From NCBI GenBank assembly GCA_030539165.1, contig JAUNSO010000001.1, forward strand, positions 143,607 through 207,606: a stretch of DNA of 64,000 nucleotides, read 5' to 3'. The stretch comes from a bacterium. GTDB lineage: Bacteria > Bacillota > Clostridia > Lachnospirales > Lachnospiraceae. The position numbers were made by a program, and so were the translations under genes. This document shows, one piece after another, positions 12,831 to 58,010 of this stretch (position 1 is its first letter; each line of letters begins with the position of its first letter). The notes under the pieces were generated by a model. The model was not told the DNA's origin and did not search any database. It saw nothing but the letters and a program-made list of their open reading frames with translations.

Positions 12831-13082
12831 TTTGGACAAGTACTTCCTTCAAAATACAGTATAAATTCCAAAATGCTTCATTACATCACTAAGTTCTTAT
12901 GGATTTGGACAAGAAAGCTTCTTAAAATGCATATTTAATTCCATATTTCACATGAATGGATATAGAAATAGGAATTTTAATACTTCTCAAACGATATGTC
13001 TTGTCCAAAATGATCTCATCTTTATCATAAACATATCAATTTTGGAATTGTATATTATATCTAAGCATATATAATGTCCAAA
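12831..13082. repeat. Symmetric array of four 40-bp modules (TTTGGACA-N25-AATTCC)
   Basis: Within the gene-free stretch 12716-13182, four modules share TTTGGACA, exactly 25 bases, then AATTCC(A/T): plus strand 12831-12870 and 12904-12943, minus strand 12970-13009 and 13043-13082. Copies in each orientation are offset by 73 bases, and all four are symmetric about 12956.5. Spacer sequences differ, so the shared boxes look selected or ancestral. It could be a MITE-like element with two protein-binding sites in each inverted end (flanks GTTAA and GTCAA resemble a decayed target duplication), or a multi-site operator for the ACT/DUF711 genes. Confidence 0.7.
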
Positions 13083-57608: not shown

Positions 57609-57630
57609 GCTTTCACTCCTAAATGGAATT

Positions 57631-58010
57631 ATAAGCAAGTCTGTAAGCCGGGTTATGTGCCGCTGTCACAAGGACAGCCGGTGATGATCATCTATCTCGT
57701 ACTGCTGTTGCCAACAGTCTCAAGCGACCCACCTGAAAGCACGACGGGCCGCCGTATCGCTTTCTATTCGGTCTTGCTTCGAATGGGGTTTACATATGCC
57801 CTGTACGTTACCGCACAGGCGGTAGTCTCTTACACTGCCCTTCCACCCTTACCTCGCACAGCAAGCTATGCGGCTGGCGGTATATTTCTGTTGCACTATC
57901 CTTGGAGTCACCTCCACCGGACGTTATCCGGCATCCTGCCCTGTGAAGCCCGGACTTTCCTCACCCCGGACCTTTCGGTACTAAGGGGCGCGATCATCTG
58001 ACTTACTTAT
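57631..58010 (-). ncRNA. rnpB: RNase P RNA, bacterial class A
   Basis: Catalytic RNA that matures tRNA 5' ends. On the minus strand the conserved GAGGAAAGTCCGGGCT lies near the 5' end, the ACA-AACCCGGCTTACAG type block near the 3' end, and AGAGACTACCGCC-like core sequences between. Ends ATAAGTAAGTC and GACTTGCTTAT pair to form P1, which fixes the limits. Length ~380 nt is usual. Confidence 0.96.

Follow-up and report, generated by a model that had tools for sequence, protein, structure and literature searches.

A dispersed intergenic repeat of eight phased boxes in a Lachnospiraceae genome, probably MITE-like with multi-site ends

In the inverted-repeat/direct-repeat ends of Tc1-like transposons, e.g. 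Sleeping Beauty, two directly repeated bipartite sites are carried per end and are mirrored at the other end. The element described here has the same layout of sites, but its unit is only 250 bp long and no such transposase gene was identified. Prokaryotic MITEs, for instance Chunjie, Nezha, and Correia, are short, non-coding, multicopy, and intergenic, with inverted ends and stem-loop potential (PMC10969869). These properties recur here, whereas target-site duplication is absent, no partner IS was found, and eight phased boxes are separated by nearly random spacers. REP, BIME, and REPIN elements (PMC3116915, PMC1525189) are alike in their inverted doublets, free spacers, long persistence, and use as IS targets. 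However, the present modules are bipartite with 72 bp rather than palindromes of 20–40 bp, and no RAYT lies beside the tested copies. The BOX elements of Streptococcus, likened here by their description, are also composite intergenic repeats with a variable internal module number; BOX keeps the whole modules A, B, and C (PMC3049150), whereas only the boxes are kept here and the module order is mirror-symmetric. BrickBuilt, a MITE of Porphyromonas gingivalis, is comparable in its about 19 intergenic copies, internal tandem units, and limited host range (PMC4596501), but it consists of a contiguous 23-bp repeat in place of a 72-bp pitch with mirrored orientation. Miniature dispersed repeats are thus a known kind of element; what is unusual is that eight phased boxes are combined with spacers of almost random sequence. 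No family of such a kind described in this group was found in the literature searched.

The window is the whole stretch of DNA analysed, 64,000 nucleotides. The module found in it reads TTTGGACA-N25-AATTCC. An earlier note on this DNA had described four such modules in exact mirror arrangement with a 73-base offset, and all of them are present without mismatch (Table 1). Its spacer of 25 bases was correct; its module length of 40 bp was not, as the core measures 39 bp (8 + 25 + 6). One symmetry point serves both module pairs (12831 + 13082 = 12904 + 13009), and the same-strand offset is 73 on each side. The AATTCC box runs on to ATTCCAAA. This makes every module an imperfect bipartite palindrome, TTTGGACAA...ATTCCAAA, whose boxes A and B start 34 bp apart in the window copy and 32–35 bp apart across copies. 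The two inner B boxes make a central stem-loop. The remaining matches in the window need two or three mismatches and stay at chance level (12 found versus 7.8 expected with at most three mismatches).

Table 1. Features of the element in the window (F and R, modules on the + and - strand).
Feature	Position	Strand	Basis or remark
Complete element F1-F2-R3-R4 (252 bp)	12831..13082	.	Module match and alignment with 21 other copies
Module F1 core	12831-12869	+	Without mismatch
Module F2 core	12904-12942	+	Without mismatch
Module R3 core	12971-13009	-	Without mismatch
Module R4 core	13044-13082	-	Without mismatch
F1 box A, TTTGGACAA	12831..12839	+	Sequence and copy alignment
F1 box B, ATTCCAAA	12865..12872	+	Sequence and copy alignment
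F2 box A, TTTGGACAA	12904..12912	+	Sequence and copy alignment
F2 box B, ATTCCATA, doubles as 5' arm of central stem-loop	12938..12945	+	Sequence and copy alignment
Central imperfect stem-loop, AATTCCATATTTC...GAAATAGGAATT	12937..12976	.	Sequence and arm co-variation across copies, permutation p 0.0006
R3 box B	12968..12975	-	Sequence and copy alignment
R3 box A	13001..13009	-	Sequence and copy alignment
R4 box B	13041..13048	-	Sequence and copy alignment
R4 box A (TTTGGACAT)	13074..13082	-	Sequence and copy alignment

The genome containing the window is a draft of 3.39 Mb in 124 contigs (assembly 95% complete). It contains 19 exact matches to the 39-bp core and 25 to the extended core, against 0 for the reversed-pattern control. 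The looser pattern TTGGACA-N23..27-WTCCAA yielded 77 exact matches genome-wide versus 0 for the reversed control, so the pattern is not due to chance; the earlier note had judged a random origin very unlikely. About 28 arrays of the same approximately 250-bp F-F-R-R design were found over the whole genome with a profile of half-elements. Most are FFRR with a total length of 247–252 bp. The internal module number is variable, since FFFRR (C28), FFRRR (C89, C80), and FFRR with a further R beyond an insert (C32) were also seen. Solitary modules lie at C77 and C104, with one more on C86, C56 carries a near-identical tandem module pair, and runs of N cut two copies (C18, C24). The unit is short, non-coding, and intergenic; in the few places where it overlaps a predicted gene, a gene end or a small ORF is involved, and the element at C84 contains the stop codon of a gene for a sensor kinase. 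Six copies lie less than 300 bp from a contig start (C7:37, C64:41, C86:78, C80:82, C84:205, C89:288). Four of these six were tested for a common repeat and none was found. Assembly may fail at arrays of tandem modules.

Pairwise comparison of 22 copies gave identities of 81–94% in the boxes, 33–38% in the spacers (random 27%), and 28–32% in the flanks. For the eight closest copies the values are 88–100%, 58–64%, and 35–43%, respectively. The boxes are about 92% identical to the consensus and still 90% once the best module of each element is left out. Therefore, their conservation is no artefact of box searching. The pitch from one box A to the next is 72 or 73 bp in nearly all modules (range 71–74), which would be close to seven helical turns. 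Standard repeat finders overlook the family because little overall similarity survives apart from the eight boxes and their helical spacing; a local repeat finder run on the window region reported nothing. On C85, a 313-bp inverted duplicate with 87% identity (L085:6986-7298 and L085:9743-10053) comprises most of one element and approximately 90 bp of flank; its two copies enclose catalase and cytidylate-kinase-like genes. The two copies differ at 3/69 box, 22/155 spacer, and 14/90 flank positions (Fisher p about 0.037 and 0.036). The boxes thus changed less than the spacers or the flank, which points to constraint in place, from a single pair and with a modest p value.

Such constraint is what the main rival explanation draws on. 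It holds that the arrays are maintained by the host, with a nucleoid-structuring or silencing protein on the phased boxes after an old spread by duplication or transposition. Boxes left intact beside near-random spacers, the C85 differences, and the strict pitch near seven turns are in its favour, and it fits the long persistence of the boxes. However, the neighbouring genes have no common function or placement, the sharp ends and mirror symmetry resemble a mobile unit, and the arrays are absent from two sets of other genomes, 60 and then 396, most of which belong to the family. We consider this explanation rather unlikely.

The ends argue for mobility. Homology between most copy pairs stops 1–4 bp past the outer boxes (pairwise alignments with 300-bp flanks), and the termini are inverted repeats, TTTGGACAA...TTGTCCAAA, with discrete ends. 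The position immediately beyond the left end is occupied by T in 16/22 copies, and that immediately beyond the right end by A in 13/22. The earlier note had suggested a MITE with two transposase sites per end. The multiple dispersed copies that it had named as support were found, with sharp ends in unrelated flanks, but no matching-end transposase came out of the searches of the draft genome and no target-site duplication was seen. Specifically, the 22 copies have no 2–10 bp flank in common at any offset, and the near-matching 5-bp flanks of the window copy (gttaa/gtcaa) proved not to be a feature of the family. Such duplications are known to erode in older elements (PMC10969869), so their absence lowers the claim of MITE membership and does not exclude it.

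A genome-wide search for two transposase families gave one IstA-like and one DDE_Tnp_1 gene. No box pairs surround them in the stretch inspected, in which the outer end of the IstA-like gene, at a contig start, was partly seen. No transposase with matching ends appeared from these two families or among the flanking genes, and the flanking genes tested included no transposase or recombinase. As a separate observation, the genome has just three copies of a sequence of approximately 60 bp beginning TGTACCCCAAAGAGTGGACACGGTAAG (L030:9469-9533 at C32, L042:623-683 at C89, and L029:8116-8175 at C29), each separated by 24–25 bp from a box A, on the outer side. The first approximately 25 bases of this sequence match repeats in other genomes of the family, two of which (L183, L193) adjoin ORFs resembling an IS3-family transposase. 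Therefore, an IS3-like element may have used the arrays as a target.

Folding bears on two further explanations. The elements fold more stably than shuffled sequences (mean z –3.9, against –0.6 for the flanks), and the inverted boxes alone would largely account for this stability. Spacer complementarity is no higher within than between elements (p 0.46, 0.33, 0.96), which argues for sites on double-stranded DNA and not for one long hairpin. A long-hairpin RNA was rejected, as the spacers on the two sides of the dyad are unpaired. According to one explanation, the element is REPIN-like and moved as single-stranded DNA by a hairpin-recognising RAYT-type tyrosine transposase. Intergenic inverted doublets, conserved ends, free spacers, a central stem-loop, and low folding energy would suit it, and REPINs have the same properties (PMC3116915). 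However, there is no continuous hairpin, single modules pair only about 6 bp around a gap of about 28 nt, and no Y1 (RAYT) transposase was present among the flanking proteins tested. This explanation is improbable.

The second explanation is a structured RNA acting on co-transcribed genes as an attenuator or processing site. It would account for the central loop, whose arms are complementary within elements (permutation p 0.0006; central B boxes weakly, p 0.01). In some copies the central boxes are altered yet a stem is kept, e.g. C86 with an unrelated long stem. Against it, the helix constraint is confined to the centre and the boxes are kept in sequence and phasing. The loci also show many strand contexts, their genes being mostly tandem and in some cases divergent or convergent. 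Rfam gave no match to any relevant family; at the curated threshold it reported only the class A RNase P RNA elsewhere in the window (57628-58009, - strand). Moreover, template switching in palindromes could also yield arm agreement, so selection for RNA is unproven. A role as structured RNA is therefore very improbable.

The window copy lies 115 bp upstream of an ACT gene, and its neighbours include this gene and a HerA-type ATPase. The earlier note had proposed, as an alternative, a looping operator before the ACT/DUF711 genes. The element is not a single copy at a regulated gene; about 27 of the about 28 copies adjoin unrelated genes elsewhere, which argues against the operator to the point that it is scarcely credible. 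The neighbours of the other copies include glutamine synthetase, fatty-acid synthesis enzymes, PFK, CodY, MATE, IspD, catalase, glutamate dehydrogenase, and ABC transporters. One copy also adjoins a possible defence gene (L026:10314-13268), whose 985-aa product carries a ThsB-like TIR domain at its N-terminus.

None of 60 related genomes contained the double-module pattern. A search of one genome per species over 84,980 species (GTDB 220) returned seven stretches and no credible match. One of them is a CRISPR-like repeat array in Tengunoibacter, and the rest are single matches without arrays that were judged to be chance. The same judgement was made for weak single matches in nine of 396 other genomes, mostly of the family, in a profile search (E 6e-5 to 9e-4); as only nine candidates were scored per genome there, weak relatives could be missed. 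IMG/VR contained no double module, and its 81 single-module stretches, with one match each, were regarded as chance. Blastn against plasmids and phages gave no match. As far as could be tested, the repeat family is restricted to its genus, which is represented by one genome.

Eight boxes at fixed distances, with the other letters drifted and the copies scattered, suggest a small mobile DNA probably held by a box-binding protein. We therefore favour, with a probability of about 0.58, the reading that the patch in the window is one copy of a non-coding, genus-restricted MITE-like repeat with multi-site ends, moved in trans by a putative transposase. From the phasing and the unpaired spacers, we infer that the boxes are bound by protein as double-stranded DNA. 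At each end, two bipartite modules (box A TTTGGACAA, box B ATTCCAAA) stand in direct repeat and are mirrored at the other end, which is what a transposase pairing multi-site ends would need. A multimeric DNA-binding protein, most likely the transposase acting in trans, would contact the boxes of modules that begin at intervals of seven helical turns, and would pair the two ends so that the approximately 250-bp unit could move. Through tandem duplication of the 72-bp unit, modules may be gained or lost. The intact state of the boxes on copies that have otherwise diverged would reflect selection for continued binding, either for transposition competence or for a later-acquired host use. Several observations count against the MITE-like reading. 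Spacer divergence marks the copies as very old, which is unusual for a bacterial MITE, and neither a target-site duplication nor a transposase was found, the latter either beside the copies or, in the two families searched genome-wide, with matching ends. In addition, some pairs have 17–47 bp in common beyond the left end, and the C85 pair approximately 90 bp of flank.

More speculatively, and in our opinion unlikely, the family could be a previously undescribed chromosomal architecture element, in which helically phased, orientation-alternating half-sites at about 28 intergenic places are bound by one genus-specific protein, mobile in origin and now under selection for chromosome structure or silencing. 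Miniature repeats in bacteria are normally detected because their sequences are similar overall; here the boxes and their helical spacing outlast that similarity. The MITE-like family thus offers a test case for distinguishing repeats kept by mobility from those kept by host use of the assembled complex, and it predicts a specific putative DNA-binding protein.
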